From Acetivibrio saccincola (GTDB taxonomy: Bacteria > Bacillota > Clostridia > Acetivibrionales > Acetivibrionaceae): DNA of 64,000 nucleotides. This document shows, one piece after another, positions 2-31,919 of the stretch. The translations under genes were made by a program, and so were the position numbers. The DNA lies in assembly GCF_002844395.1 (NCBI RefSeq), contig NZ_CP025197.1:558001-622000 (forward strand), read 5' to 3'. Below the pieces are notes generated by a model. The model saw only the letters and a list, made by a program, of their open reading frames with translations. It ran no database searches and was not told where the DNA came from. The first letter of the stretch is position 1; every line of letters starts with the position of its first letter.

Positions 2-3000
2 ATAACAGTAGCAAAAGAAGGAGTATATGCAGACTATGATCTAAACAAAATACCAGTAACATATGTAACTGGAGGAGTAGATGTTGGAGCAGAACCACAA
101 CCAACGACATCACCAAAGCCAACAACATCACCGAAACCAACACAGCTTCCAGACGGATTTGGAGTAATAATAGATACAGTAGCAGCGAAAGCAGGCGACA
201 CAATAGAAATACCAATACGCTTCAATAATGTACCATCAAGTGGAATAAACAACTGTGACTTCATACTATGGTATGATCCAGATGTAGTAGATGTAACAGA
301 AATAGTGCCTGGACCGATAATAATAAACGGTGCACAAGACTTTAAGTCATATATAAATAAAGACAATGGCAGATTGTCCTTCATGTTCGTGGACGAGACA
401 GGATTAGGTAACCGCATGATTAAGACAGATGGAGTATTTGCAGTATTGAAGGCAAAAGTAAGCTCAACAGCACCAAACGGACTAAGTGAAATAACAGTAG
501 CAAAAGAAGGAGTATATGCAGACTATGATCTAAACAAAATACCAGTAACATATGTAACTGGAGGAGATGTTGGAGCAGAACCACAACCAACGACATCACC
601 AAAGCCAACAACATCACCGAAACCAACACAGCTTCCAGACGGATTTGGAGTAATAATAGATACAGTAGCAGCGAAAGCAGGCGACACAATAGAAATACCA
701 ATACGCTTCAATAATGTACCATCAAGTGGAATAAACAACTGTGACTTCATACTATGGTATGATCCAGATGTAGTAGATGTAACAGAAATAGTGCCTGGAC
801 CGATAATAATAAACGGTGCACAAGACTTTAAGTCATATATAAATAAAGACAATGGCAGATTGTCCTTCATGTTCGTGGACGAGACAGGATTAGGTAACCG
901 CATGATTAAGACAGATGGAGTATTTGCAGTATTGAAGGCAAAAGTAAGCTCAACAGCACCAAACGGACTAAGTGAAATAACAGTAGCAAAAGAAGGAGTA
1001 TATGCAGACTATGATCTAAACAAAATACCAGTAACATATGTAACCGGAGGAGTAAATGTAGGAGAAGAACCAGAGCCAACAACATCACCAGAACCTACAA
1101 CTTCACCGGAACCAACAACATCACCAGAACCAACACAGCTACCAGACGGATTTGGAGTAATAATAGGTACAGTAGCAGCGAAAGCAGGTGACACAATAGA
1201 AATACCAATAAGCTTTAACAATGTACCATCAAGTGGAATAAACAACTGTGACTTCATACTATGGTATGATCCAGATGTAGTAGATGTAACAGAAATAGTA
1301 CCTGGACCGATAATAATAAACGGTGCACAAGACTTTAAGTCATATATAAATAAAGACAATGGCAGATTGTCCTTCATGTTCGTGGACGAGACAGGATTAG
1401 GTAACCGCATGATTAAGACAGACGGAGTATTTGCAGTATTGAAGGCAAAAGTAAGCTCAACAGCACCAAACGGACTAAGTGAAATAACAGTAGCAAAAGA
1501 AGGAGTATATGCAGACTATGATCTAAACAAAATACCAGTAACATATGTAACCGGAGGAGTAAATGTAGGAGAAGAACCAGAGCCAACAACATCACCAGAA
1601 CCTACAACTTCACCGGAACCAACAACATCACCAGAACCAACACAGCTACCAGACGGATTTGGAGTAATAATAGGTACAGTAGCAGCGAAAGCAGGCGACA
1701 CAATAGAAATACCAATAAGCTTTAACAATGTACCATCAAGTGGAATAAACAACTGTGACTTCATACTATGGTATGATCCAGATGTAGTAGATGTAACAGA
1801 AATAGTACCTGGACCGATAATAATAAACGGTGCACAAGACTTTAAGTCATATATAAATAAAGACAATGGCAGATTGTCCTTCATGTTCGTGGACGAGACA
1901 GGATTAGGTAACCGCATGATTAAGACAGACGGAGTATTTGCAGTATTGAAGGCAAAAGTAAGCTCAACAGCACCAAACGGACTAAGTGAAATAACAGTAG
2001 CAAAAGAAGGAGTATATGCAGACTATGATCTAAACAAAATACCAGTAACATATGTAACCGGAGGAGTAAATGTAGGAGAAGAACCAGAGCCAACAACATC
2101 ACCAGAACCTACAACTTCACCGGAACCAACAACATCACCAGAACCAACAACATCACCAGAACCAACACAGCTACCAGACGGATTTGGAGTAATAATAGGT
2201 ACAGTAGCAGCGAAAGCAGGCGACACAATAGAAATACCAATAAGCTTTAACAATGTACCATCAAGCGGAATAAACAATTGTGACTTTAGAATAACTTACG
2301 ATGATAGCGTTCTTACAATAGAAAAAGTAGAAGCCGGACCAATAGTGATAAACGGTGCACAAGACTTTAAGTCAAACATAGTAAAAGGTGATGCAAGAGT
2401 AGCATTTATGTTTGTAGATGAAACAGGATTAGGTGACCGCATGATTAAGACAGACGGAGTATTTGCAATATTAACAGTAAAAGTAAGTGAAGATGCTCCA
2501 GAAGGCTTAACAGTAATAGATGTAGCTAGCCAATATGTATTTGCAGACTACGACTTAAATAAAATACCAGTAACATTTGTAACCGGAGGAGTAAATGTAG
2601 GAAAAGAAGTAGTTGAACCTTCAGAAGGATATACTATCTCAGGCTATGTTGCACCAGATTTCCAATATGACTCCTCAGTAAAAGCTGAACTATTATCAGG
2701 ATTCAATGTAGAAGTTGAAGGAACAGAACTTTATGCAGTAACTGATGCTAACGGATACTTCGAAATTAGCGAGGTACCAGGAAATGAAGATGGATATACA
2801 ATAACAATATCAAAACAATATTATATAACTAGAAGCTTAGTTGTAGCAGGTAACAAAGATACTCAAGTATCTACTTCATCATCACCATTACTAATCTGGG
2901 CTGGAGACATTACAGAAGACGGAATGCTTAACTTGTCAGACGTAGCATTAGTAGGTGGGGCATATAATACAGTAACTGGAAACGAGAAGTTTAGTGAAGA

Positions 3001-3229: not shown

Positions 3230-5095
3230 ATGAAGCAAAGTAGAGTGATTTCATTATTTTTAACCATACTAGTATTATTATCATGCATTTCGACAAACCC
3301 AGTTTTTGCAGATACAACGCCGGTTATAAAAATGGAGATTGATAAGTCAACTGTGAAGACAGGGGACATTATATCGGTATCACTAAAAGTCGAAAATATA
3401 TCCAATTTTGCAGGATATCAAGTAAACATAAAGTATGATCCTGAGATGTTAGAAGTAATAGATCCAGTACCGCAAGAGGGAGAAATATTAAATAACAAAG
3501 AGTATGGAAGTGTGAATCAATCAGCAAATGACCCTGAGAAGGGATTACTGAACTTTGGTAAGGTTTATCAGTATTTAGATGACTATAGAAGCGATGGTAA
3601 TCCTGAAGAAACAGGGGTATTTGGTATAATAGAGTTCAAAGCTAAAAAAGCAGGCAAAACAGAAATCAGGTTTGAAGATACAGAGACAATGCCAAATGGT
3701 ACAACAGGTACATTATTATTTGATTGGGACGGAAACAGGATATCAGGCTATGAAGTGGTACAGCCAGAGGAGATAGTTATAACAGAAGAAGGCGGTACTT
3801 CAGGAAAGATAGAGATGGAACTTGATAAGACAACTGCAAAGGTAGGAGACATTATAACAGTATCATTAAAGGTAGAGGATATAACTCACTTTGCAGGATA
3901 TCAAGTAAACATAAAGTATGATCCTGAGATGTTAGAAGTAATAGATCCAGTACCGCAAGAGGGAGAAATATTAAATAACAAAGAGTATGGAAGTGTGAAT
4001 CAATCAGCAAATGACCCTGAGAAGGGATTACTGAACTTTGGTAAGGTTTATCAGTATTTAGATGACTATAGAAGCGATGGTAATCCTGAAGAAACAGGGG
4101 TATTTGGTATAATAGAGTTCAAAGCTAAAAAAGCAGGCAAAACAGAAATTAGGTTTGAAGATACAGAGACAATGCCAAATGGTACAACAGGTACATTATT
4201 ATTTGATTGGGACGGAAACAGGATATCAGGCTATGAAGTGGTACAGCCAGAGGAGATAGTTATAACAGAAGAAGGCGGTACTTCAGGAAAGATAGAGATG
4301 GAACTTGATAAGACAACTGCAAAGGTAGGAGACATTATAACAGTATCATTAAAGGTAGAGGATATAACTCACTTTGCAGGATATCAAGTAAATATAAAGT
4401 ATGATCCTGAGATGTTAGAAGTAATAGATCCAGTACCGCAAGCGGGAGAAATATTAAATAACAAAGAGTATGGCAGTGTGGATCAATCAGCAAATGATCC
4501 TGAGAAGGGATTACTAAACTTTGGTAAAGTTTATCAGTACTTAGATGACTACAGAAGCGATGGTAATCCTGAAGAAACAGGGGTATTTGGCATAATAGAG
4601 TTTAAAGCTAAAAAAGCAGGTAAAACAGAAATTAGGTTTGAAGATACAGAGACAATGCCAAATGGTACAACAGGTACATTATTATTTGATTGGGACGGAA
4701 ACAGGATATCAGGCTATGAAGTGGTACAGCCAGAGGAGATAGTTATAACAGAAGAAGGCGGTACTTCAGGAAAGATAGAGATGGAACTTGATAAGACAAC
4801 TGCAAAGGTAGGAGACATTATAACAGTATCATTAAAGGTAGAGGATATAACTCACTTTGCAGGATATCAAGTAAATATAAAGTATGATCCTGAGATGTTA
4901 GAAGTAATAGATCCAGTACCGCAAGCGGGAGAAATATTAAATAACAAAGAGTATGGCAGTGTGGATCAATCAGCAAATGATCCTGAGAAGGGATTACTAA
5001 ACTTTGGTAAAGTTTATCAGTACTTAGATGACTACAGAAGCGATGGTAATCCTGAAGAAACAGGGGTATTTGGCATAATAGAGTTTAAAAGCTAA
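3230..5095 (+). CDS. olpB: OlpB-like anchoring scaffoldin, N-terminal part, ended by a premature in-frame stop
   Basis: Start ATG 3230 follows AGGGGG at about 3212. Residues 1-27 are a signal peptide ending VFA. Four type II cohesin modules follow, with a repeat period of exactly 483 bases (161 residues); the fourth is cut by TAA at 5093-5095. The same frame carries on directly downstream with the rest of the fourth cohesin, so this and the next two entries are parts of one gene (3230-8643). Type II cohesins of OlpB-type proteins bind the type II dockerin of CipA and tie the cellulosome to the cell envelope. The stop arises because GCT sits one base later inside its A-run than in the sister repeats; total length is unchanged. 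As read, the product would be secreted but lack the SLH anchor. Mutation and sequencing error are both possible. Confidence 0.85.
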   Translation: MKQSRVISLFLTILVLLSCISTNPVFADTTPVIKMEIDKSTVKTGDIISVSLKVENISNFAGYQVNIKYDPEMLEVIDPVPQEGEILNNKEYGSVNQSANDPEKGLLNFGKVYQYLDDYRSDGNPEETGVFGIIEFKAKKAGKTEIRFEDTETMPNGTTGTLLFDWDGNRISGYEVVQPEEIVITEEGGTSGKIEMELDKTTAKVGDIITVSLKVEDITHFAGYQVNIKYDPEMLEVIDPVPQEGEILNNKEYGSVNQSANDPEKGLLNFGKVYQYLDDYRSDGNPEETGVFGIIEFKAKKAGKTEIRFEDTETMPNGTTGTLLFDWDGNRISGYEVVQPEEIVITEEGGTSGKIEMELDKTTAKVGDIITVSLKVEDITHFAGYQVNIKYDPEMLEVIDPVPQAGEILNNKEYGSVDQSANDPEKGLLNFGKVYQYLDDYRSDGNPEETGVFGIIEFKAKKAGKTEIRFEDTETMPNGTTGTLLFDWDGNRISGYEVVQPEEIVITEEGGTSGKIEMELDKTTAKVGDIITVSLKVEDITHFAGYQVNIKYDPEMLEVIDPVPQAGEILNNKEYGSVDQSANDPEKGLLNFGKVYQYLDDYRSDGNPEETGVFGIIEFKS

Positions 5096-5720
5096 AAAGC
5101 AGGTAAAACAGAAATTAGGTTTGAAGATACAGAGACAATGCCAAATGGTACAACAGGTACATTATTATTTGATTGGGACGGAAACAGGATATCAGGCTAT
5201 GAAGTGGTACAGCCAGAGGAGATAGTTATAACAGAAGAAGGCGGTACTTCAGGAAAGATAGAGATGGAACTTGATAAGACAACTGCAAAGGTAGGAGACA
5301 TTATAACAGTATCATTAAAGGTAGAGGATATAACTCACTTTGCAGGATATCAAGTAAATATAAAGTATGATCCTGAGATGTTAGAAGTAATAGATCCAGT
5401 ACCGCAAGCGGGAGAAATATTAAATAACAAAGAGTATGGCAGTGTGGATCAATCAGCAAATGATCCTGAGAAGGGATTACTAAACTTTGGTAAAGTTTAT
5501 CAGTACTTAGATGACTACAGAAGCGATGGTAATCCTGAAGAAACAGGGGTATTTGGCATAATAGAGTTTAAAGCTAAAAAAGCAGGTAAAACAGAAATTA
5601 GGTTTGAAGATACAGAGACAATGCCAAATGGTACAACAGGTACATTATTATTTGATTGGGACGGAAACAGGATATCAGGCTATAAAGTAGTACAGCCAGG
5701 GGAGATAGTTATAACTGACG
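3310..5720 (+). repeat. Tandem 483-bp repeats encoding type II cohesins
   Basis: The marker GGCGGTACTTCAGG recurs at 3791, 4274, 4757 and 5240, exactly 483 bases apart. Copies differ at very few bases, some shared by neighbouring copies (for example GCGGGAG against GAGGGAG), as expected after recent unequal crossing-over or gene conversion. Confidence 0.95.
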
Positions 5721-7969
5721 AGGAAGAAGAGACACCAGAACCGACAACATCACCAGAACCGACAACATCACCAGAGCCAACAACGTCACCAGAACCAACA
5801 ACATCGCCAGAGCCGACAACGTCACCAGAGCCAACAACGTCACCAGAACCGACAACATCACCAGAACCGACAACATCACCAGAGCCAACAACGTCACCAG
5901 AACCAACAACATCGCCAGAGCCGACAACGTCACCAGAGCCAACAACGTCACCAGAACCGACAACATCACCAGAGCCAACAACGTCACCAGAACCAACAAC
6001 ATCGCCAGAGCCGACAACGTCACCAGAGCCAACAACGTCACCAGAACCGACAACATCACCAGAACCGACAACATCACCAGAGCCAACAACGTCACCAGAA
6101 CCAACAACATCGCCAGAGCCGACAACGTCACCAGAGCCAACAACAATGCCTGAATCATATATAACTTTGGACTTAAGTCAGAAGTATATAAAAGAAGGAG
6201 ATATAGTAGTAGGTACGTTTAGAGTTGAGAATATACCTTATTTTGCAGGATATCACATAAACATAGTATACGATCCAGAAGTACTGGAAATAGTTAATCT
6301 AGAAGGTGAAAGATTAGGCAGTAGGGATATGCTCTTAAATAGGGAAATCATTGTAGAGGGAAAATACGATTTAATTACATATGTAAGTACTAATTATTCA
6401 GAAGGTATAGCAGGTTATGTAGCAATGTATGTGGATCTTCCAAGCTATGAGGCTTCAGGAGTAGCTGAAGAATCTGGAGTATTAGGACAACTAGGGTTTA
6501 AAGTTCTGCAAGAAAAAGATACAGTAATTAGATTTGAAAACACCGAGTCAATGTCAACTGGAATAGAAGGAACAATGTTGTTTAATTGGTATGGTCGCCA
6601 GGTGTATGATTACGTTGTTATACAGCCAGAGCCACTGATAGCAGGAGAACCAGAACCAACAACATCACCAGAACCAACAACATCACCAGAACCAACAACA
6701 TCACCAGAACCAACAACATCACCAGAACCAACAACATCACCAGAACCAACAACAACGCCAGAACCAACAACATCACCAGAACCAACAACATCACCAGAAC
6801 CAACAACATCACCAGAACCAACAACATCACCAGAACCAACAACAACGCCAGAACCAACAACATCACCAGAACCAACAACATCACCAGAACCAACAACATC
6901 ACCAGAACCAACAACATCACCAGAACCAACAACATCACCAGAACCAACAACATCACCAGAACCAACAACATCACCAGAACCAACAACATCACCGACACCA
7001 ACAACATCACCAGAACCAACAACAACGCCAGAACCAACAACATCACCAGAACCAACAACATCACCAGAACCAACAACATCACCGGAACCAACAACATCAC
7101 CAGAACCAACAACATCACCAGAACCAACAACATCACCAGAGCCAACGACGTCACCGACACCAACAACATCACCAGAGCCAACAACATCACCGGAACCAAC
7201 AACATCACCAGAACCAACAACATCGCCGGAGCCAACAACAACGCCAGAACCAACAACATCACCAGAGCCAACAACATCACCAGAGCCAACAACATCACCG
7301 ACACCAACAACAACACCGGAACCAACAACATCACCAGAGCCAACAACAACGCCAGAACCAACAACATCACCAGAACCAACAACATCACCCAGACCAACAA
7401 CAACGCCAGAACCAACAACATCACCAGAACCAGCACATCTGAACCAACAACATCACCTGGAACCAACAACATCACCAGGAACCAACAACATCACCGACAC
7501 CAACAACATCACCAGGAACCAGCAACAACGCCAGAACCAACACATCACCAGAACCAACAACATCACCAGGAACCAACAACAACGCCAGAACCAGCAACAA
7601 CGCCGGAACCAACATCACCAGGAACCAACAACATCACCGGACCAACAACATCACCAGAGCCAACAACATCACCGGAACCAACAACATCACCAGAACCAAC
7701 AACATCACCAGAGCCAACAACATCGCCAGAACCAACAACATCACCAGAGCCAACAACGTCACCGAAACCAACAACATCACCGACACCAACAACGTCACCG
7801 AAACCAACAACATCACCATCACCAACAACGTCACCAAAACCAACGACATCACCGAAACCAACAACATCACCGAAACCAACACCGACAACAACACCAACAC
7901 CGACATCAACAACGTCACCGAAGCCAACACCAACAACATCACCAACACCAACGCCAACATCTGATATAG
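5138..7969 (+). CDS. olpB: OlpB-like anchoring scaffoldin, middle part: type II cohesins and PEPTTS linkers
   Basis: This continues the frame of the preceding part after the TAA at 5093; 5138 is merely the next ATG, without a convincing ribosome site. It holds the end of cohesin four, a complete fifth cohesin near-identical to the others, a PEPTTS linker (about 5730-6147), a divergent sixth type II cohesin (about 6160-6640), and a second much longer PEPTTS linker. From about 7433 the translation dissolves into His/Gln/Asn-rich sequence because of a series of single-base indels, and the frame ends at 7969 without reaching the SLH domains. The true protein end is in another frame. The His/Gln-rich tail is an artefact of the frame change, not a domain. 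Confidence applies to the identity of the domains, not to this being a separate gene. Confidence 0.7.
5732..6148 (+). repeat. 18-bp PEPTTS-coding minisatellite, first block
   Basis: Roughly 23 copies of an 18-base unit coding Pro-Glu-Pro-Thr-Thr-Ser with silent variation in third positions (CCAGAA/CCAGAG, ACATCA/ACGTCA). The variants themselves recur in a higher-order pattern of several units. It encodes a flexible, probably glycosylated linker between cohesins five and six. Confidence 0.95.
6648..7965 (+). repeat. 18-bp PEPTTS-coding minisatellite, long second block with an indel-rich centre
   Basis: About 43 in-frame copies run from 6648 to about 7430. A stretch of about 210 bases follows in which the unit is repeatedly disturbed by one base (CCAGGAACC for CCAGAACC, AACACATCA for AACAACATCA). 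About 17 more in-phase units lead into the SLH domains. The net shift is +2 bases, moving the repeat from the cohesin frame to the SLH frame. Confidence 0.95.
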
Positions 7970-8643
7970 AAGAGCCAACTCCAACAATCCCGGGTGGTCC
8001 TTCTATTGGTGAGCATAAGGCGTACTTAAGTGGATATCCGGACGGTTTATTCAGACCTAACCAGAATATAACAAGGGCAGAAGCTGCTGCGATATTTGCC
8101 AGAATATTAGGATACAACGCAGATTCTAACTTGTTGATAGGAAACAAATATACAGACGTAGATGACAGTCACTGGGCAGCATGGGCAATTAAGCTTACAT
8201 CAGATAAAGGCTTATTTGTAGGTTATCCGGATGGATCATTTAAGCCTGACCAAAACATAACAAGAGCTGAGTTTTCAACTGCAGTGTTTAAGTTCTTAAA
8301 ATTAGTTAGAGGCATCAGTGAAGTTCAATTTAGTGAATTCACGTTTGAAGATGCAAAGGGACACTGGGCTGAAAACTATATAGAACAGCTTACAAGGCTT
8401 GGTTACATTAGTGGTTATCCAGACGGAACATTTAAGCCTGAGAATAAGATATTAAGATCTGAAACTGTTGCCCTAATGAACAGAGCACTAGAAAGAGGAC
8501 CGCTATACGGAGCACCACAAATATTTGAAGACGTTACAGAAAAACACTGGGCATTCTACGATATCGCAGAAGGTGCGCTTGATCATAGATATAGAATAGA
8601 TGAAGATAAACGGGAAGTACTTGTAGAGATATTAGAAAAATAG
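7642..8643 (+). CDS. olpB: OlpB-like anchoring scaffoldin, C-terminal part: PEPTTS linker and SLH domains
   Basis: The reading frame is in phase with the PEPTTS repeat again from about 7642. A Pro/Thr linker of about 110 residues leads to three S-layer homology domains, recognisable by their GYPDG (L/S/T) F (R/K) P and ITRAE cores (near 8030, 8225 and 8410), then a C-terminal half-repeat with [12 protein letters not shown] domains bind pyruvylated secondary cell-wall polymer, so this is the surface anchor of the olpB-like gene. No start codon with a ribosome site belongs to this piece. It should be joined to 3230-5095 and 5096-7432. The C-terminal arrangement closely matches that of the olpA-like gene downstream. 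Confidence 0.85.
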
Positions 8644-9315: not shown

Positions 9316-10590
9316 ATGAAAGTAAAAAAAATATCAATTGCTTATATTTCTGTTTTTATAATAGTGAGTATTTTAATTAGTATATCATTATTTAGTATAC
9401 CAGCTATGGCAAATAGTAACATAAGTGTAAAAGTGGCAACTGTAGAAGCTAAAGTCGGGGAGAGAATAGAAGTTCCAGTATCATTTTCAAACTTACCTGA
9501 TTCAGGAATTAACAATTGCGATTTTAGACTGAAATATGATAAAGATGTATTAGAAATTGTGGAATTAAAACCAGGAAAAATAGTTACAAATCCTAACATA
9601 AATTTTAGGTATAATATAAATGATCCGGGAAAAGTGGCAGTAATGTTTGTGGATGAAACAGGGGTAGGCAAAGAATTAATAAAAGAAGACGGGGATTTTA
9701 TAATATTGGTATTTAAAGTTAATGATTCTGCCAAAAATGGAATGAGCTATATTGAGCTGACATCTAGGCTAACTATTTCTGGATATGATTTGGTATTGTT
9801 GCCAACTGATTTTGTAAAAGGTGGAGTGAAAGTTAGTGGTGGAAAGGATATAGCTCCGACGGACAATGATGAGGATGATGCTCAAGATGAGATTTCAGAT
9901 AATGAAGATTCAGATGTTAATGACCAGAATGAGCCGGATAGTTTGATACCAGGCAGCAGGAAGGAAGGTATACATAAGGCGTATTTAAAGGGCTATCCAG
10001 ACGGAAATTTCAAACCTGAAAACAGCATAACCAGGGCAGAGGCAGCAGTTATTTTTGCTAATTTATTAGAGGTAGACCAAAATGCCCAGCCTAAGAGCAG
10101 TATTAGTTATACTGATTTACCAAATGACCATTGGGCGGCGTGGGCTGTCAGGTATGTTTCAGAATTAGGTTTGTTTAGCGGTTATCCGGATGGAACATTT
10201 AAGCCCAACAACAGAATCACCAGAGCTGAGTTTTCAACAGTTGTACTTAAATACCTGGAAATGGAGGAACCTCAACAAGTAAAGAATAAATTTGATGACT
10301 GTATAGGACATTGGGCTCAAAAATACATTGAAAAATTATCAGATTCCGGTTACATTAATGGTTATCCGGATGGGACTTTTAAACCTCAGAACAGCATTAA
10401 ACGTGCTGAAAGTGTTGCTTTAATTAACAGGGCGTTAAACAGAGGTCCATTGTACGGAGTTAAGGAAAACTTTCCAGATGTACCTAGCACATATTGGGCT
10501 TATGGTGATATAGCGAAAGGAGCTATTACTCACAGGTATTACATTGACGAAGAAGGACGGGAAGTTTTTTTAGAAAAAATTGAGAATTAA
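9316..10590 (+). CDS. olpA: OlpA-like cell-surface protein: type I cohesin plus SLH domains
   Basis: ATG 9316 follows GGGAGG at 9303. The 424-residue product has a signal peptide (residues 1-32, ending SIPAMA), one type I cohesin (about 34-173) clearly related to the scaffoldin cohesins (shared [13 protein letters not shown] and FVDETGVG), a short Asp/Glu-rich linker (about 177-212), and three SLH domains with GYPDG cores. In this family the cohesin binds dockerin-bearing enzymes directly, holding single cellulases at the cell wall. Unlike the olpB-like gene it is intact and its linker is acidic, not Pro/Thr-rich. Its SLH part resembles that of the preceding gene, suggesting duplication of the anchoring module. 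Confidence 0.95.
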
Positions 10591-10863: not shown

Positions 10864-11724
10864 TTAATAAACATCAAGTTTTTCATGATATATAAAATCA
10901 GCACTGTTGTCAAAATAGTCTCTTGTTACAGATGATGCAGCAAATGTGGAATCTAATGTGATCCACCTGTCTTCTTCTGAAATGTATATTTCATTCCATG
11001 CATGAAGCTCATTGCGGCCAGGGGCGGTATAATTACCTTTTATAACTTTCACCTGTAGACCGGCGGCTCTTCCTAAAGCAGCAACTAAATTAGAGTAATC
11101 ATAACATACCCCTGTGCGGGTTCTGTAGGCATGCAGAGCTCCATACTCATTATCAAAGTTTTTCTCTAATTGCCTGTAATATTTTTCATAATCATATGTA
11201 ATATTTGATGATACCCAATTGTGAATCCGTCGTGCCTTTTCCAAGTCAGATTTAACATTTTTAGTTAGTTCATTTGCCAGTTGAATAATTTCTTCATGAT
11301 TGCTTTCAACATGTAATGTAGGAACTGTAAACCTGTTAACTTCAGTTAGATTTTCAACTTTTACAGTGGGACCGTAACGGTATTTCCTGTCCACCACATG
11401 AACTAATACTGAAACTGTATAATTTCCTGTTCCATCAATCAGCCATATTTCTTCTTGAAAAGCACCATTTTCAAGTTTAACATCATACCAGCGCTGGATT
11501 TCATCCTTAACCACAAGAATTTTTATTTTTGCATTTTCTGTCGTTCCTGTGAGAGTAACTTTACCTTCAACTTTTGGAGGGATATTTTGGAGAGTTACTT
11601 TGTTAATCCGCATAAAACCTGGGGTGTACGTAGTATTTGTAGATGTAGATGTAGCGAATGAGACATTTACAAACATTGTTACTACTATGCAAAGCATAGT
11701 AATAAGTTTAAGACTTTTTCTCAT
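10864..11724 (-). CDS. Secreted transglutaminase-like protein under c-di-GMP riboswitch control
   Basis: ATG at 11724 follows GGGAGGAATTGTT; the frame extends upstream to 11748 but that part is 5' leader. The 286-residue product has a signal peptide (MRKSLKLITMLCIVVTMFVN, then a cut near SFA), a beta-rich N-terminal part (about 40-150), and a transglutaminase-like domain. The expected Cys-His-Asp triad is visible as TRTGVCYDYS, NELHAWNE and WITLDSTF. Such domains act as amide cross-linkers or as cysteine peptidases; which applies here is unknown. Secretion and c-di-GMP control suggest a cell-wall or extracellular-matrix role. It stands alone, convergent with olpA. Confidence 0.85.
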   Translation of the reverse strand: MRKSLKLITMLCIVVTMFVNVSFATSTSTNTTYTPGFMRINKVTLQNIPPKVEGKVTLTGTTENAKIKILVVKDEIQRWYDVKLENGAFQEEIWLIDGTGNYTVSVLVHVVDRKYRYGPTVKVENLTEVNRFTVPTLHVESNHEEIIQLANELTKNVKSDLEKARRIHNWVSSNITYDYEKYYRQLEKNFDNEYGALHAYRTRTGVCYDYSNLVAALGRAAGLQVKVIKGNYTAPGRNELHAWNEIYISEEDRWITLDSTFAASSVTRDYFDNSADFIYHEKLDVY

Positions 11725-11739
11725 AACAATTCCTCCCTT

Positions 11740-11826
11740 TTTCGGCAACCCAGCCGTCTTGGTTGTAAATCAACCGAAGACCTGTGGCTTTGCGTCCTCA
11801 ATTTTCATTGAGTTTGCTATTATCGA
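11740..11826 (-). promoter_or_regulatory. Cyclic di-GMP-I riboswitch (GEMM), gene-proximal copy
   Basis: Read on the minus strand it has GCAAACTCAATGAAAATTGA with a GAAA tetraloop, then the conserved block GACGCAAAGCCACAGGTC, a second hairpin (GGTTGATTTACAACC) and the closing GGCTGGGTTGCC. The ribosome site of the transglutaminase gene begins only a few bases after it, so translational control is plausible. Confidence 0.93.
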
Positions 11827-11875
11827 AAGGGTACATTATTATCGAAAGGATGTATGATGTGTTTTTTTGTTTTTT

Positions 11876-11916
11876 AGAAAACCAAAAAGCCCTGACCGGA
11901 CTACCAGACAGAGCTT
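11876..11916 (-). terminator. Intrinsic terminator between the two c-di-GMP riboswitches
   Basis: On the minus strand a 13-bp stem with one mismatch and a 4-base loop (11887-11916) is followed by TTTTTGGTTTT. It sits directly downstream of the distal aptamer, where a riboswitch-controlled terminator is expected. Confidence 0.8.
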
Positions 11917-11937
11917 GTAAACGTACATCATACTCTT

Positions 11938-12024
11938 ATTTTGGCAACCCGGCTGTCATAGTGATGGTATCACCTTAGACCCGTAGCTTTGCGCCTCTAC
12001 CTTTCGATAGATTTGCCCTTTTCA
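11938..12024 (-). promoter_or_regulatory. Cyclic di-GMP-I riboswitch (GEMM), promoter-proximal copy
   Basis: Minus-strand reading gives GGGCAAATCTATCGAAAGGT (GAAA tetraloop), GGCGCAAAGCTACGGGTC, a second stem GGTGATACCATCAC, and GACAGCCGGGTTGCC. This matches GEMM-I. Together with the proximal copy it makes a tandem arrangement. Confidence 0.93.
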
Positions 12025-12052
12025 AAATATAATTATTAACTTGTATACATAT

Positions 12053-12081
12053 ATTATATAACAAAACAAAGGATTTTTCAA
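12053..12081 (-). promoter_or_regulatory. Promoter of the riboswitch-transglutaminase transcript
   Basis: On the minus strand TTGAAA (12081-12076) and TATAAT (12058-12053) are 17 bases apart, placing the transcript start near 12046, just ahead of the distal aptamer. Confidence 0.8.
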
Positions 12082-12359: not shown

Positions 12360-12953
12360 ATGCAATATATCTTCAATGTTCATGAAGGAATTCATGAATA
12401 TATTAAACTTGGGAGAAATTATCCTTTTCCACCGCCACCAACTAAAAGATGTCACAATCCAAAATGCAATAAATTAGTTAGTTTCCGCAAACATGGCTTC
12501 TATGAAAGATATTATTACTCAAAAGAATATAAAGGGAAAATAGTAATCAGACGCTATATATGTCCTCTATGTGGATGCACCATATCATATATTTCTAACT
12601 TTTGTTTACCCGGATTTATTAATGCAATAAATCATATTTTTGAATACATATATAATTTATTTTATCGTAAAGGTAGTATTAATTCAGTTATAAAACAACT
12701 AAATCTAAAAAACAACGTACAGTTTTCAAGGCAAATTCTATACTATTACAGAAAAAAATTCATTAAAAATCTCAATACAATACAAAATGGATTAAGACAA
12801 ATAATACACAAAGTGAAATTACCGGATGAAACTCTTGGAAACACAGAAAAAGCAAGAAACGTTTTAGCAATAGTAGTAAGAGAATTCCCCAACATTCAAC
12901 TATTCTCTCAAAAATACTATCAAGCTACCGCTAAAACATTTCTTGCAGCATGA
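12360..12953 (+). CDS. Transposon-borne zinc-finger protein (DUF6431-like)
   Basis: ATG 12360 follows GGAGGGTGATGT. The 197-residue product has an N-terminal zinc-binding pattern (CHNPKC, then CPLCGC), a basic middle region (YYYRKKFIKNL) and no membrane segment. I recognise it as the small protein that often precedes this type of rve transposase and ATPase in Firmicutes; its function is not established, and a DNA-binding accessory role is an inference. The C-terminus may be shortened: in-frame stops follow, and the adjacent sequence (13003-13060, IFNEINRNTIF in a shifted frame) could be the lost tail. Confidence 0.6.
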   Translation: MQYIFNVHEGIHEYIKLGRNYPFPPPPTKRCHNPKCNKLVSFRKHGFYERYYYSKEYKGKIVIRRYICPLCGCTISYISNFCLPGFINAINHIFEYIYNLFYRKGSINSVIKQLNLKNNVQFSRQILYYYRKKFIKNLNTIQNGLRQIIHKVKLPDETLGNTEKARNVLAIVVREFPNIQLFSQKYYQATAKTFLAA

Positions 12954-13122
12954 TTATAACATTAAAATAGGATTTTAAAAAGCGTCTTATGAAAAATTTT
13001 TAATGAAATCAACCGCAACACCATATTTTCCTTTACTTGAGCAAATAACTATGGTAACATCCGTGGTAAAGAACAGCCTGACCGGTCATGGCTTCCTAAA
13101 AATGCAACAGGAGGTCAGGAAT

Positions 13123-14060
13123 ATGTTAAGTGAAGAGGTAAGAAATGCCATTGCGTTAAAAAGATTTTCACTGATAAGTCCGATCCTAAATGGACAAGTG
13201 AATAATCGTAAGGACTATTATGCTCAAATTTCATCAAAACCCGTAGAAATGCCACACTATGGCATAAGAAAATATTCACCTAAAACAATAGAGTCCTGGT
13301 ACTGTGATTACATGCGTGGAGGATTGGATGCATTAAAACCCGGATACCGGAAAGACAGGGGTAATTGTAGAAAAATAGATACAGAACTTGCTGAAAAAAT
13401 CCTTGAGACGAAAAGAAAATATCCTAAAGCGCCTACTACAATCATCTATGATAAACTAATAAAAAAAGGCATATTAAAAGAAGGGCAAATATCACTTACC
13501 ACACTATACAGGTTTTTAAAATTTTCAAATCATGAAAGCATTTATGAAACTGAAGAGAAAAAAGAAATTAAAAGATTTGCACATCAATATATAAATGAGT
13601 TGTGGTATGGGGATTTAATGTATGGACCTTACATACAGGAAGAGGCATACCTTCCCTGCTCTATACGGACAATGGGAAGATTTACCGTTCACAGCAGTTT
13701 GAATTTATGTGCGCGGACGTAGGATGCGCTCTTATACATTCGAAACCCTTTGTTGCACATAGCCGGGGAAAAATAGAAAGGTTCTTTTTAACAGTTAGAA
13801 AAAGATTTTTATCCCAACTTAATATGAATAAAATTAAGAGTTTAGAAGAGCCGGTATTCATATACTATGAAGGCAAGAAAATCGGTGAAGCCTTGCAGGT
13901 TAAATTTCATGACAATGCCCATATGAAACGAAGGGGCAGACCTAAAAATTCTGAGTTAATAGTGGATTTACAAAATAACGAAGTATCTGTAACACATGCT
14001 GACATGCCTAAATCAAAACAAACAATTTCATTTAAAACAATTATGGAAGGAGAGAAATAA
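13123..14060 (+). pseudogene. rve-domain transposase with internal deletion and frameshift
   Basis: The start is probably ATG 13123 after AGGAGG; the frame is open from 13003. The N-terminal part (to about 13660) has helix-turn-helix-type DNA-binding sequence and the start of the integrase core (NELWYGDLMYGP, with the first catalytic Asp). The remainder is in another frame and resumes at GIPSLLYTDNGKIYRSQQ with the second catalytic Asp, then KIERFF with the catalytic Glu region, to the stop at 14058. The intervening piece of the catalytic core (roughly 40-50 residues in intact relatives) is missing at about 13650. The deletion changes the frame, so no active DDE enzyme can be made. Confidence 0.85.
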
Positions 14061-14062
14061 TT

Positions 14063-14577
14063 ATGTTCAGACAGTTTTTTGGACTAAAATACAATCCTTT
14101 TGGAAAAGAAATTGATATTTCTGATGTTTATGAAAGTGAAGATATTAAGGAATTAAATTCAAGATTTAAATATATTCAAAACATCCGGGGAATGTTTCTT
14201 TTAGTCGGTGAACCGGGAATGGGAAAATCCACCGCCTTAAGAAAATTTTCAGCCGGGTTAAATCCGGGACTTTACAAACCCTGCTATTTTTCTCTCTCAA
14301 CAGTTACCGTTATGGATTTTTACCGGGGTCTTTTAATATCTTTAGGAGAAGTGCCTTCACATAAGAAGGTTACAATGTTTCATCAGATACAACAAGCAAT
14401 AATGTCTTTGTACTATATACCCAGGCTGCAATTGAAGCTATTTATTCTGCATCAAAAGGCGTACCCCGCCTTGTTAACAGTCTTGCAACCTCAAGCCTTA
14501 TGTATGCTTGTTCAATAAAGCAAAAGCATGTAGATGAAGAAATCGTATACCAAGGACAAAAAGACTTTGAAATCTAA
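14063..14577 (+). pseudogene. ExeA/TniB-like transposition ATPase with internal deletion
   Basis: ATG 14063 lies three bases after the transposase stop, with AAGGAGAG upstream. The first 113 residues match AAA ATPases of this type: FGLKYNPFGKEI at the start and a Walker A motif GEPGMGKST at about 50. At about 14415 the sequence jumps to the C-terminal end of the family (TQAAIEAIYSASKGVPRLVN to the stop at 14577) in a different frame; Walker B and sensor regions are absent. The N-terminal frame therefore ends with unrelated residues at 14518. Both transposition genes have been damaged by internal deletions. Confidence 0.85.
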
Positions 14578-28735: not shown

Positions 28736-29006
28736 ATGAAAAGGCGATGATTAAGAGGAGTAGACAGTGCTGGCTTAAAAAGAGATAGAAAACCTTAGGC
28801 TGAAAGTTTTCTATAAGCAACAGCTGTCGAAGGTAGCTTAGAAGCTCTGCAGTTGAAATAGCAGTAGACTGTGGCGGTAAAGAGCCGTTATTCCGATAGA
28901 GGGTCCAATTATATACATAACTCAGGTGTATTTATAATTGGGAAATATGGTGGTACCGCGGAAACATTCTTTCGTCCATTTTTTAGGATGAGAGGATTTT
29001 TTTATT
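28736..29006 (+). promoter_or_regulatory. T-box riboswitch, valine-type
   Basis: The leader shows the T-box layout: Stem I from 28736 with AGTAGACAG (AG-bulge region), a candidate specifier GTA (valine) at 28833-28835 within GAAGGTAGC, the conserved T-box TGGTGGTACCGCGG at about 28949-28962, and a terminator (TCTTTCGTCC pairing with GGATGAGAGGA, then a T-run near 29000). Uncharged tRNA-Val would favour read-through into the small membrane gene and valS. Confidence 0.93.
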
Positions 29007-29276: not shown

Positions 29277-31919
29277 ATGAGTAATATAGCAAAGACATAT
29301 GATCCTAAACAGGTTGAAGACCGGATTTATAGTGAATGGATGGAAAAAGGCTATTTTCATGCAAAAATTGATAAGGAAAAGACACCCTTTACAATAGTTA
29401 TCCCGCCGCCAAATATAACGGGGCAGCTACACATGGGTCATGCTCTTGACAACACTTTGCAGGACATTTTAATAAGGTGGAAGAGAATGCAGGGTTATTG
29501 TGCCCTATGGCTTCCAGGAACTGACCATGCAAGTATTGCTACAGAAGCAAGAATTGTTGAGACTATGGCTAAAGAAGGAATTACCAAAGAACAAATAGGC
29601 AGGGAAGAGTTTTTAAAGAGGGCATGGAAGTGGAAAGAACTGTACGGGGGAAGGATTGTAGAACAATTAAAGAAACTAGGAAGCTCCTGTGATTGGGAAC
29701 GTGAAAGATTTACCATGGATGAAGGACTTTCCAACGCTGTAAAAGAGGTATTTATAAAGCTTTATAGAAAAGGTCTTATTTACAGGGGAGAGAGAATTAT
29801 AAACTGGTGTCCTAAATGCAATACTTCCATATCAGATGCGGAAGTTGAGCATAATGAAAAACAGGGGCATTTCTGGCATTTTAAATACCCTGTAAAGGAC
29901 AGCAACGAGTATTTGGTAATTGCCACAACAAGACCTGAAACAATGCTTGGGGATACGGCGGTGGCTGTACATCCTGATGATGAAAGGTACAAGCATCTTG
30001 TAGGAAAGACTGTAATTCTTCCTTTAGTGAACAGGGAAATTCCTATAATTGCGGATGAATATGTTGATATGGAGTTTGGTACCGGAGTTGTTAAAATTAC
30101 TCCTGCCCATGACCCTAATGACTTTGAAGTGGGACTTAGGCACAATTTACCGCAACTAAAGGTTATGAATGATGATGCAACAATGAATGAGCTTGCAGGC
30201 CAGTACAGCGGAATGGACAGGTATGAAGCCAGAAAGCAGATTGTGAAGGATCTTGAAAACCTTGATTTGCTGGTTAAAGTAGAAGATCATACCCACAATG
30301 TGGGAGAATGCTACAGGTGTAATACTGTAGTAGAGCCTATAATTTCGAAACAGTGGTTTGTTAAAATGGAGCCTTTGGCAAAGCCTGCGATAGAGGCAGT
30401 TAAAAACGGTTCTATAAAATTTGTGCCTGAAAGATTTTCAAAGATATATTTTAACTGGATGGAAAACATACAGGATTGGTGTATTTCCAGGCAGCTCTGG
30501 TGGGGTCACAGAATTCCTGCATATTACTGTTTGGAATGTGGGCATATGATGGTGGAACACCAAATGCCGGATGTTTGTCCTGAGTGTAACAGCACAAGGA
30601 TAAAACAGGATGAGGATACTCTTGACACATGGTTTAGCTCTGCCCTTTGGCCTTTCTCAACTTTAGGATGGCCTGAAGAGACAGAGGATTTAAAATACTT
30701 TTATCCTACAGATGTACTTGTTACAGGTTATGATATAATATTTTTCTGGGTAGCGAGAATGATTTTCTCAGCTTTAGAGCATACAGGGAAGATACCCTTT
30801 AAGTACGTCTTTATACATGGTATCGTGAGGGATGCCCAGGGAAGAAAAATGAGTAAATCCTTGGGTAATGGTATAGATCCTTTGGAAATAATTGATAAAT
30901 ATGGGACGGATGCATTAAGATTTGCCCTTACAATAGGTACTTCACCAGGAAATGACATGAGATTTTCAGATGATAAAGTTGAATTTAGCAGAAATTTTGC
31001 AAATAAAATTTGGAATGCATCCAGATTTGTTCTTATGAATTTTGATGATAATATTGATTTTTCAAAAGTAAACCCGGAGAAATTTACAATAGCTGACAAA
31101 TGGATATTAAGCAGGGTGAATTCCCTTTCTAAAGAAGTTACAGAAAATATGGAAAAATTTGAACTTGGTATAGCACTGCAAAAAGTGTATGAATTTATAT
31201 GGGATGAGTTTTGTGACTGGTATATTGAACTTGTAAAGCCAAGACTTTATGACAGAGAGTCTGATTCAAGGCTTGAAGCTCAGTATACATTAAACTATGT
31301 ATTAGGTACATCCATGAAGCTTTTACACCCATATATGCCGTTTATCACTGAAGAGATTTATTCGCACCTTATAAATGAAGACGAAAGTATAATGATTTCA
31401 AAATGGCCTTTGTATGAGGAGAAATATAATTTTGAAGAAGAAGAAAATAAAATGCAGCTTATAATGAACATCATTAAAAGCATTAGAAATATAAGGGCAG
31501 AAATGAATGTACCACCGTCAAGGAAGGCGACGGCCATATTTGTTGCCCCGGCCATAAGGGAGCAGGAAATATTAAAAGAGGGAGAAGGATTTTTCAAAAC
31601 ATTAGGCTATAGTTCAGAGATTATTATACAGCCAGATAAATCGGGTATACCTTCTGATGCAGTGACATCTGTCCTTGCAGGGGTGGAAGTATTTATTCCC
31701 CTTGAGGATTTAATAGATATTGAAAAGGAAATTGAAAGGCTTGAAAAGGAAAAGGAAAACCTTGAAAAAGAGCTTGACAGAGTAAATAAAAAGCTTTCTA
31801 ACGAAGGATTTATTTCAAAGGCACCTGAAAAAGTGGTTAATGCTGAGCGTGAAAAGAAAGAAAAATATCAGGAGATGTATGAAAAGGTGTTAGAAAGATT
31901 AAACAGCCTTAAAAAGTAA
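29277..31919 (+). CDS. valS: Valyl-tRNA synthetase
   Basis: ATG 29277 follows AATGGAGG. The 880-residue class I synthetase is of normal length. HIGH-type motif: [15 protein letters not shown] (about 44). The editing domain (about 190-340) has [12 protein letters not shown]. Zinc-knuckle cysteines sit near [18 protein letters not shown]. The KMSKS motif is at about 523 ([11 protein letters not shown]). Anticodon-binding domain and C-terminal coiled coil ([20 protein letters not shown]) are present. It charges tRNA-Val and edits threonine. Expression is T-box controlled. Confidence 0.97.

Follow-up and report, generated by a model that had tools for sequence, protein, structure and literature searches.

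Tandem c-di-GMP-I aptamers upstream of a transglutaminase-fold gene in Acetivibrio saccincola: a predicted two-stage OFF switch near surface-anchoring genes

The leader and its conservation

The window analyzed here is the whole stretch of 64,000 nucleotides which corresponds to bases 558001-622000 of the Acetivibrio saccincola genome, itself a single contig of 3.60 Mb. On the minus strand, a promoter, a first c-di-GMP-I aptamer (aptamer 1), an intrinsic terminator, a second aptamer of the same class (aptamer 2) and a ribosome site follow one another in this order and lead into a gene encoding a protein of the transglutaminase fold. The features of the locus, in window positions, are the following:

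12053..12081, minus: sigma-70-type promoter, TTGAAA-17-TATAAT (promoter scan, 11/12 matches)
11940..12027, minus: c-di-GMP-I aptamer 1 (RF01051 covariance model, 90.2 bits, E 1.3e-16)
12028-12023 and 11943-11938, minus: P1 strands of aptamer 1 (sequence reading and computed fold)
11942..11952, minus: antiterminator strand, the 3' part of aptamer 1, CCGGGUUGCCA (computed duplex)
11896..11906, minus: antiterminator partner, the terminator 5' half and loop, UGGUAGUCCGG (computed duplex)
11936-11932 with 11914-11910, minus: second, short antiterminator helix, AGAGU with GCUCU (computed duplex)
11884..11916, minus: intrinsic terminator, hairpin 11916-11887 and UUUUU 11888-11884
11741..11828, minus: c-di-GMP-I aptamer 2 (RF01051 covariance model, 82.4 bits, E 1e-14)
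11824..11831, minus: 5' strand of the aptamer-2 P1 and predicted ribosome-site mask, CCCUUUCG (CCTT conservation and computed pairing)
11732..11744, minus: 3' strand of the aptamer-2 P1, overlapping the ribosome site (computed pairing and relatives)
11737-11732, minus: ribosome site GGGAGG (read from the sequence)
10864..11724, minus: transglutaminase-fold gene, 286 aa, ATG 11724-11722 (Pfam, invariant columns, model and fold)
9316..10590, plus: olpA-like anchoring gene, convergent to the enzyme gene and coding for a cohesin and three SLH stretches

Tandem c-di-GMP-I aptamers had been proposed between positions 11740 and 12081, along with a covariance-model check of both copies. This check has been run and matched the two aptamers over the full length of the model (positions 1-87), their 90.2 and 82.4 bits standing against a gathering score of 35 for RF01051. 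They represent two of the four RF01051 matches in the 3.60 Mb genome. The coordinates of the original prediction are correct, the enzyme gene extending further to the left of them, and the terminator which it placed between the aptamers is borne out by the hairpin and U run at 11916-11884. Folded by itself, this hairpin reaches -17.7 kcal/mol, and a simple terminator scan returned 4 sites versus 0.4 in shuffles, one of them being the inner part of the 11916-11887 hairpin. The promoter scan of the locus returned 5 promoter-like sites versus a mean of 4.5 in shuffles. A box with 10-11/12 matches and a 17-nt spacer is located 5' of aptamer 1 in 14/14 leaders of the host's family, and in 12 of these 14 a promoter-like box stands 27-30 nt from the end of the compared stretch.

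c-di-GMP-I matches are present in all 14 genomes searched for the host's family, the source genome included, and in each of them an aptamer pair, with a hairpin and U run in between, lies 5' of the orthologous gene. Because the order from promoter to ribosome site, as originally read, is repeated in these 14 genomes, the layout is not a product of chance. An equal layout was found in four of the five genomes of a second family (G028-G031 among G028-G032), one of which has a second copy scoring under the cut-off of the covariance-model family reported; at locus L036, the second copy, with 43.9 bits, falls short of the gathering score (59) of the family reported. The named relatives include A. 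alkalicellulosi, A. mesophilus, A. straminisolvens and Pseudobacteroides cellulosolvens. In a tree of 30 aptamers from 15 leaders (the 14 family leaders and that of G031), all first copies form one clade and all second copies the other, with a support of 100/100. The duplication is therefore older than the host's family, and a recent, strain-specific copying of the pair is rejected by the same separation.

Outside the family, 14 of 15 loci have an aptamer, a count not usable as a frequency since these loci were picked for a nearby aptamer or a like-sized protein. A larger set of 78 named loci, which is not a random sample, was collected via two conserved peptide patterns: 63 of them have an aptamer at most 900 nt upstream of the match and 15 do not. 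Aptamer copies among the 63 amount to 49 doublets, 1 triplet and 13 singles, and a terminator was detected in at least 13 of 50 named loci by a detector that misses the interrupted U runs of the family leaders. The single-aptamer relatives (13/78 loci), several of which have their aptamer at the ribosome site, could suggest that only one aptamer regulates and that the other is a relic of duplication. Against this stand the retention of both aptamers, each with its distinct coupling helix (see below), in all 14 family genomes and the fact that each copy forms its own fully supported clade, and we judge such a relic to be quite improbable.

Several other elements were observed in and around these leaders. 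An inverted repeat, GUAUGAUGU/ACAUCAUAC (window 11933-11925 and 11860-11852), flanks the terminator in the source genome and was also recognized, by eye and in part, in G005-G007. Immediately 5' of aptamer 2, a direct repeat contains CCTTTCGATAAT twice (window 11850-11818); absent from the other 13 family leaders, it offers a further possible mask of the ribosome site. Broken-looking transposition genes, with HTH_32 and AAA_22 fragments and overlapping frames, lie immediately upstream of the promoter (window 12360-14518). Finally, two relatives (L038, L039) have tandem c-di-GMP-I-GGC aptamers 5' of the same kind of gene, which by eye resemble a leader duplication, with what looks like the vestige of a ribosome site after the first copy; one of the L038 copies scores under the cut-off.

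Predicted coupling of the aptamers to the terminator and the ribosome site

Computed duplexes show that 11952-11942, in the 3' part of aptamer 1, can make 11 consecutive pairs with 11906-11896. This antiterminator is possible in 14/14 family leaders, with energies from -15.3 to -28.7 kcal/mol, and at most 11 of 300 shuffles were equally good in any single leader. Across 18 aligned leaders, 92.8% of the cells of its 10-pair core are paired versus 22-57% when the strands are slid, and exchanges occur within the core, one pair being GU, AU or GC and another GC, AU or GU. In a modest control, 13 of 500 shuffles reached the observed number of paired cells and 13 of 500 the observed score, the corresponding figures being 22/500 for both-side changes and 77/500 for further pair types. 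The terminator helix covaries, with 0/500 shuffles reaching its score. Two bases which follow the terminator GG and are unpaired in the hairpin are U/C in 18/18 and A in 17/18 leaders, a conservation explained by their pairing in the antiterminator.

In the computed structures, folded aptamer 1 is compatible with the terminator and incompatible with the antiterminator. The bound aptamer needs a strand which the antiterminator uses and the terminator leaves free; the ligand should therefore favor termination, which corresponds to an OFF response. The notion that aptamer 1 can act on the terminator is thus supported by an antiterminator predicted in 14/14 leaders. In the source genome, the computed energies favor the terminator fold over the antiterminator fold by 7.3 kcal/mol at 37 °C and 4.6 kcal/mol at 60 °C, in calculations which exclude the ligand-bound tertiary structure. 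On the same basis, the difference across the 14 leaders ranges from -3.8 to +8.1 kcal/mol at 37 °C, and the antiterminator is favored in only 4/14 leaders at 37 °C and 5/14 at 60 °C. Given the greater stability of the terminator fold, antitermination would have to work kinetically, by completion of the antiterminator before the 3' half of the terminator is transcribed.

Aptamer 2 had been predicted to sit directly at the ribosome site, and this is confirmed by the 3' strand of its P1 (11744-11732), which overlaps GGGAGG. In the computed pairing, CCCUUUCG (11831-11824) pairs with the ribosome-site strand CGAAAAAGGG (11744-11735). Because of this overlap, a P1 stabilized by the ligand would mask the ribosome site and turn expression OFF. 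CCTT is found 5' of aptamer 2 in 18/18 leaders (CCCTT in 17) and in 0/18 at the matching place before aptamer 1. Taken leader by leader, the P1 duplex is unexceptional, 7 to 97 of 1000 shuffled flanks being equally good. Removal of the flank raises the predicted accessibility of the ribosome site in 10/14 leaders at 37 °C and 13/14 at 60 °C; in 4/14 at 37 °C, the flank does not reduce it.

Among the 63 named relatives with an aptamer, the last aptamer is fused to the ribosome site and start codon in 56. It was not scored at the start codon in the other 7, two of which (L068 and L069) have a long insertion inside the aptamer, whose 3' strand is at the start codon. A strand permutation test was performed on 55 of the 56 adjacent loci, L071 being dropped as its match is not a plausible ribosome site. 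Own flank and ribosome-site strands reached -8.54 kcal/mol versus -6.70 kcal/mol for mismatched ones (0/20,000 permutations), with automatically set flanks, which at some loci are misaligned by a few bases. For 40 non-redundant loci, the values were -8.27 and -6.61 kcal/mol (0/20,000 permutations), the test allowing only partly for the shared ancestry of the loci. The own ribosome-site partner is in the best quarter for 32/55 loci, and pairings across relatives include CUCUC with GAGAG, CUUUC with GAAAG and GAUAAAGCU with AGUUUUAUC. Since own strands fit better than mismatched ones, the pairing between P1 and the ribosome site has been kept through sequence change. The aptamer-2 P1 also forms in the ligand-free computed fold, and the dynamic range could therefore be small.

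Two couplings were taken as criteria for a bi-mechanism tandem, that of aptamer 1 to the terminator via a competing antiterminator and that of aptamer 2 to the ribosome site, and both are found at the level of computed structures. Our preferred interpretation, which we consider probable, is a two-stage OFF switch operated by c-di-GMP, the enzyme being made when c-di-GMP is low. At the first stage, c-di-GMP would keep the 3' strand in aptamer 1, so that the terminator would form and RNA polymerase would stop; without c-di-GMP, this strand would pair with the 5' half and loop of the terminator, leading to read-through. At the second stage, in the read-through mRNA, c-di-GMP bound to aptamer 2 would stabilize P1 and block translation. 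Control at two levels, as anticipated by the original prediction, is thus supported by the modeled coupling of aptamer 1 to a terminator and of aptamer 2 to a ribosome site; the steep or gated response suggested along with it would be a possible consequence. Both aptamers would bind c-di-GMP in this mechanism, and the OFF direction would be expected to hold in cells.

The opposite direction has to be weighed, that is, an ON switch in which c-di-GMP lifts termination, exposes the ribosome site or does both, so that sessile cells make the enzyme, as the original prediction implies. For B. thuringiensis, the triple tandem is said to be ON. The ligand-free terminator fold is more stable in 10/14 leaders at 37 °C, as such a switch would have it, and aptamers of this kind serve ON and OFF, with pilM (c-GAMP) as an ON and Cd1 as an OFF example (PMC9262584). 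However, no element was seen where a ligand-stabilized P1 would compete with the terminator, and OFF is predicted twice, by the strand common to aptamer 1 and the antiterminator and by the overlap of the aptamer-2 P1 with the ribosome site. We thus regard an ON switch as unlikely.

The two aptamers differ at what we take to be Vc2 position 20, which is G in aptamer 1 (12017) and A in aptamer 2 (11818). Within the family, G20 is found in 14/14 first aptamers and 10/14 second ones, A20 being present in the second aptamer of the source genome and of G003, G005 and G006. Among the named loci with at least two copies (n = 50), A occurs in 4/50 last aptamers and 0/51 upstream ones; the latter have G in 50/51, the remaining T (L062) being a misreading of the pattern, as leader G011 reads G. 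The nine GGDEF domains of the genome (including L049) all have Asp, not Ser, at the presumed Hypr selectivity site, which we placed on the GHxxGD motif. No SMODS cyclase was found in the source genome, and on these two grounds a cGAMP pathway was set aside there.

The nucleotide at position 20 recognizes one guanine of c-di-GMP, and a natural A variant has been described to bind c-AMP-GMP markedly better and c-di-GMP perhaps slightly more weakly (PMC9481103). A G20A GEMM-I aptamer is tabulated as a c-AMP-GMP sensor (PMC11352751). Read together with A20 in the second aptamer of four family genomes and G in every first one, these data would suit a two-ligand gate, in which aptamer 1 senses c-di-GMP and aptamer 2 senses 3',3'-cGAMP (c-AMP-GMP). 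This gate is opposed by the Asp residues of the GGDEF domains, given the Ser rule for Hypr selectivity (PMC6456294), by the lack of a SMODS match and by G20 in the second aptamer of 10/14 family genomes, which makes it very unlikely in our view. The A20 pocket may weaken c-di-GMP binding by aptamer 2, and the likeliest reading of this aptamer is a second stage that responds to c-di-GMP at a different threshold.

The enzyme and its neighbors

The product of the gene belongs to the Transglut_core family (PF01841, 84 bits versus a cut-off of 23), and its only Pfam matches at E <= 0.001 are PF01841 and PF04473. It is putatively secreted, as judged from its hydrophobic N-terminus. All 39 aligned sequences have Cys207, His241 and Asp258, which would form the catalytic triad. 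A structure model built from these 39 sequences has a pLDDT of 90.1 (43 from the single sequence). By fold comparison of the model, residues 128-286, the C-terminal half, resemble TglA of S. pyogenes (Z 16.0), a Cytophaga hutchinsonii protein described as a putative cysteine protease (Z 14.5), transglutaminases of animals (Z about 10 to 12.5) and Legionella LapG (Z 11.9), a likeness which alone does not establish function; residues 41-127, the N-terminal part, resemble a domain of 1ug9 (Z 10.1). Membership in the LapG/BTLCP family, presumably PF06035, was rejected, as Pfam gave no match to the LapG family. Given the common fold, the modeled enzyme may work like LapG, although it is not classed as LapG. 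No role for the gene in cellulolytic Acetivibrio was found in open-licence PMC papers.

The original prediction linked the gene to the anchoring of cellulosomes. Within the family this link holds: a convergent olpA-like cohesin/SLH gene is located within about 1.7 kb downstream in 9/10 named loci (L058-L066), while no such gene was found in the 1.8 kb examined for L057. In L067, outside the family, a cohesin/SLH gene lies upstream. In G013, the order is a cipA-like end, olpB, a second anchoring gene, olpA and then the enzyme gene. With a neighborhood conserved in this manner, a one-genome accident is rejected within the family. In the source window, an olpB-like gene encoding type II cohesins is broken up into three ORFs that lie in repeats (window 3230-8643), which reflects either a pseudogene or an assembly error.

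The unit of riboswitch and enzyme gene is not special to cellulosomes and is also found at loci with no cohesin genes nearby. It occurs in Paenibacillus, Cohnella, Alkaliphilus and others, near sortase or adhesin-like genes. Among the scanned loci, a sortase gene lies near the enzyme gene in L072, L080 and L091, and in L100 its place is taken by a large adhesin gene, whose product has domains of the Collagen_bind and SpaA types; other scanned neighbors, e.g., in L069 and L088, are of neither type. A search by sequence of up to 4 kb on each side of the 78 loci, in which absences are weak as several contigs are short, gave 40 loci with a sortase, 10 with a cohesin and 10 with a SpaA-like protein. 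A sortase or cohesin gene is found within 4 kb in 48/63 loci with an aptamer versus 2/15 without (p 1.1e-5 by Fisher's test, an indicative value since related loci are treated as independent). After removal of the 13 closest loci, the counts are 38/50 and 2/15 (p 2.0e-5, read with the same caution).

In Paenibacillus and Saccharibacillus loci, further c-di-GMP-I aptamers were observed just 5' of the sortase gene itself, at positions 2703 (L090), 2260 (L101), 1751 (L117), 1757/1938 (L119), 2001/2180 (L124) and 2000/2176 (L127). The anchoring side of the unit may thus be controlled by c-di-GMP as well.

From the nearby anchoring genes and the fold shared with transglutaminases and LapG, the enzyme most likely acts on surface proteins; it may cut, cross-link or deamidate them, and the 'surface protein modification' originally suggested may be its activity. 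To the original prediction, which left the direction of control open, it has to be added that the anatomy of the leader predicts the enzyme at low c-di-GMP. If c-di-GMP turns both stages OFF, production of the enzyme would be expected as cells give up the sessile state, and its action on surface proteins would fall in the same phase. The gene would then be a defined output of c-di-GMP, silent in attachment and expressed on leaving. Its placement beside scaffoldin anchors or sortase/adhesin genes makes it a candidate attachment-remodeling or releasing enzyme in many Bacillota.

A more speculative extension, which we hold as possible and would not yet favor, is a widespread Gram-positive release system. 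In such a system, c-di-GMP-I switches, often two of them, would be OFF at two levels on a secreted enzyme encoded near surface anchors, these being sortase and adhesin or, in cellulosome producers, cohesin/SLH proteins. As c-di-GMP falls, the enzyme would cut or remodel the anchor and free cells or cellulosomes. If true, this would represent a counterpart of LapG and PPEP-1 and would provide cells that carry cellulosomes with a mechanism of detachment from cellulose.

Parallels in known systems and other RNA elements

Tandem c-di-GMP-I riboswitches are more numerous than tandems of any other class, with 347 doublets and 12 triplets (PMC9481103), and a line in a published table shows them to be enriched upstream of COG1305 transglutaminase-like genes of Bacillota (PMC12452182). 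The published tandems share aptamer class, tandem arrangement and gene class with the one described here. In the available text of these two papers, there is no treatment of the source locus, of the OFF/OFF logic, of the A20 difference or of the linkage to anchoring genes. The word 'Acetivibrio' is absent from both main texts, 'thermocellum' from that of PMC12452182 and 'Clostridium thermocellum' from that of PMC9481103. The OFF/OFF logic, the A20 asymmetry and the anchoring linkage of the enzyme gene were not found in open-licence PMC papers. The association of the tandem with this enzyme class is already published, and A20 in aptamer 2 and the linkage to surface-anchoring genes are new here.

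The design is reminiscent of the bi-mechanism SAM-II/SAM-V tandem, in which a terminating switch is likewise followed by a ribosome-blocking switch for the same signal (PMC9481103), whereas both aptamers of the source locus are c-di-GMP-I. The bi-mechanism table of this study lists SAM combinations only, and its authors did not check every tandem. If our proposal is correct, the locus would be a c-di-GMP-I case of a two-level tandem design otherwise described in that study for SAM riboswitches. The c-di-GMP-I riboswitch Bc1 of B. thuringiensis also involves both transcription and translation (PMC11218506); unlike here, it has one aptamer and two terminators and is described as incoherent, with no c-di-GMP response in vitro or in cells. 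Closer to the first stage is the OFF riboswitch Cd1 of C. difficile, where the strand closing the aptamer forms the antiterminator and the ligand leads to the terminator, in contrast with a single aptamer and flagellar genes as targets (PMC9262584).

At the level of function, PPEP-1 (CD2830) of C. difficile is, like the enzyme proposed here, secreted, preceded by a c-di-GMP-I riboswitch and made at low c-di-GMP; it releases wall-anchored adhesins, and CD2830 adjoins CD2831 by gene number (PMC11477304). PPEP-1 is a metalloprotease, whereas the protein of the source locus has a transglutaminase fold. LapG resembles it in its transglutaminase-like nature, its C-H-D triad and adjacent adhesin genes, and is c-di-GMP-controlled (PMC3032545). 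In Pseudomonas, however, LapG belongs to another Pfam family and is controlled by LapD after synthesis, while control here would be at the RNA level. Given the similar logic of PPEP-1 and LapG, we propose that a drop in c-di-GMP sets the enzyme to work on anchors or adhesins whose genes lie close by.

The genome's two remaining c-di-GMP-I aptamers are located at 1501-1598 (minus) of L003 and 1501-1593 (minus) of L004. As candidates for the control of ordinary genes they were rejected, no convincing gene being present within 1.5 kb downstream: the ORFs which follow encode 64 aa after one of them, and 122 and 63 aa after L004. One of the two is divergent and upstream of a PilZ-domain gene. Complementary ends, GGUAUAAGGAGAUA ... 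UUUCCUUAUACC, are common to L003, L004 and the relatives' loci L020, L024 and L028, which raises the question of whether aptamers of this type are a conserved stand-alone c-di-GMP RNA. Elsewhere in the window (28738-28982), a T-box leader (119 bits) lies ahead of the ORF 29277-31919, which we take to encode a valyl-tRNA synthetase.
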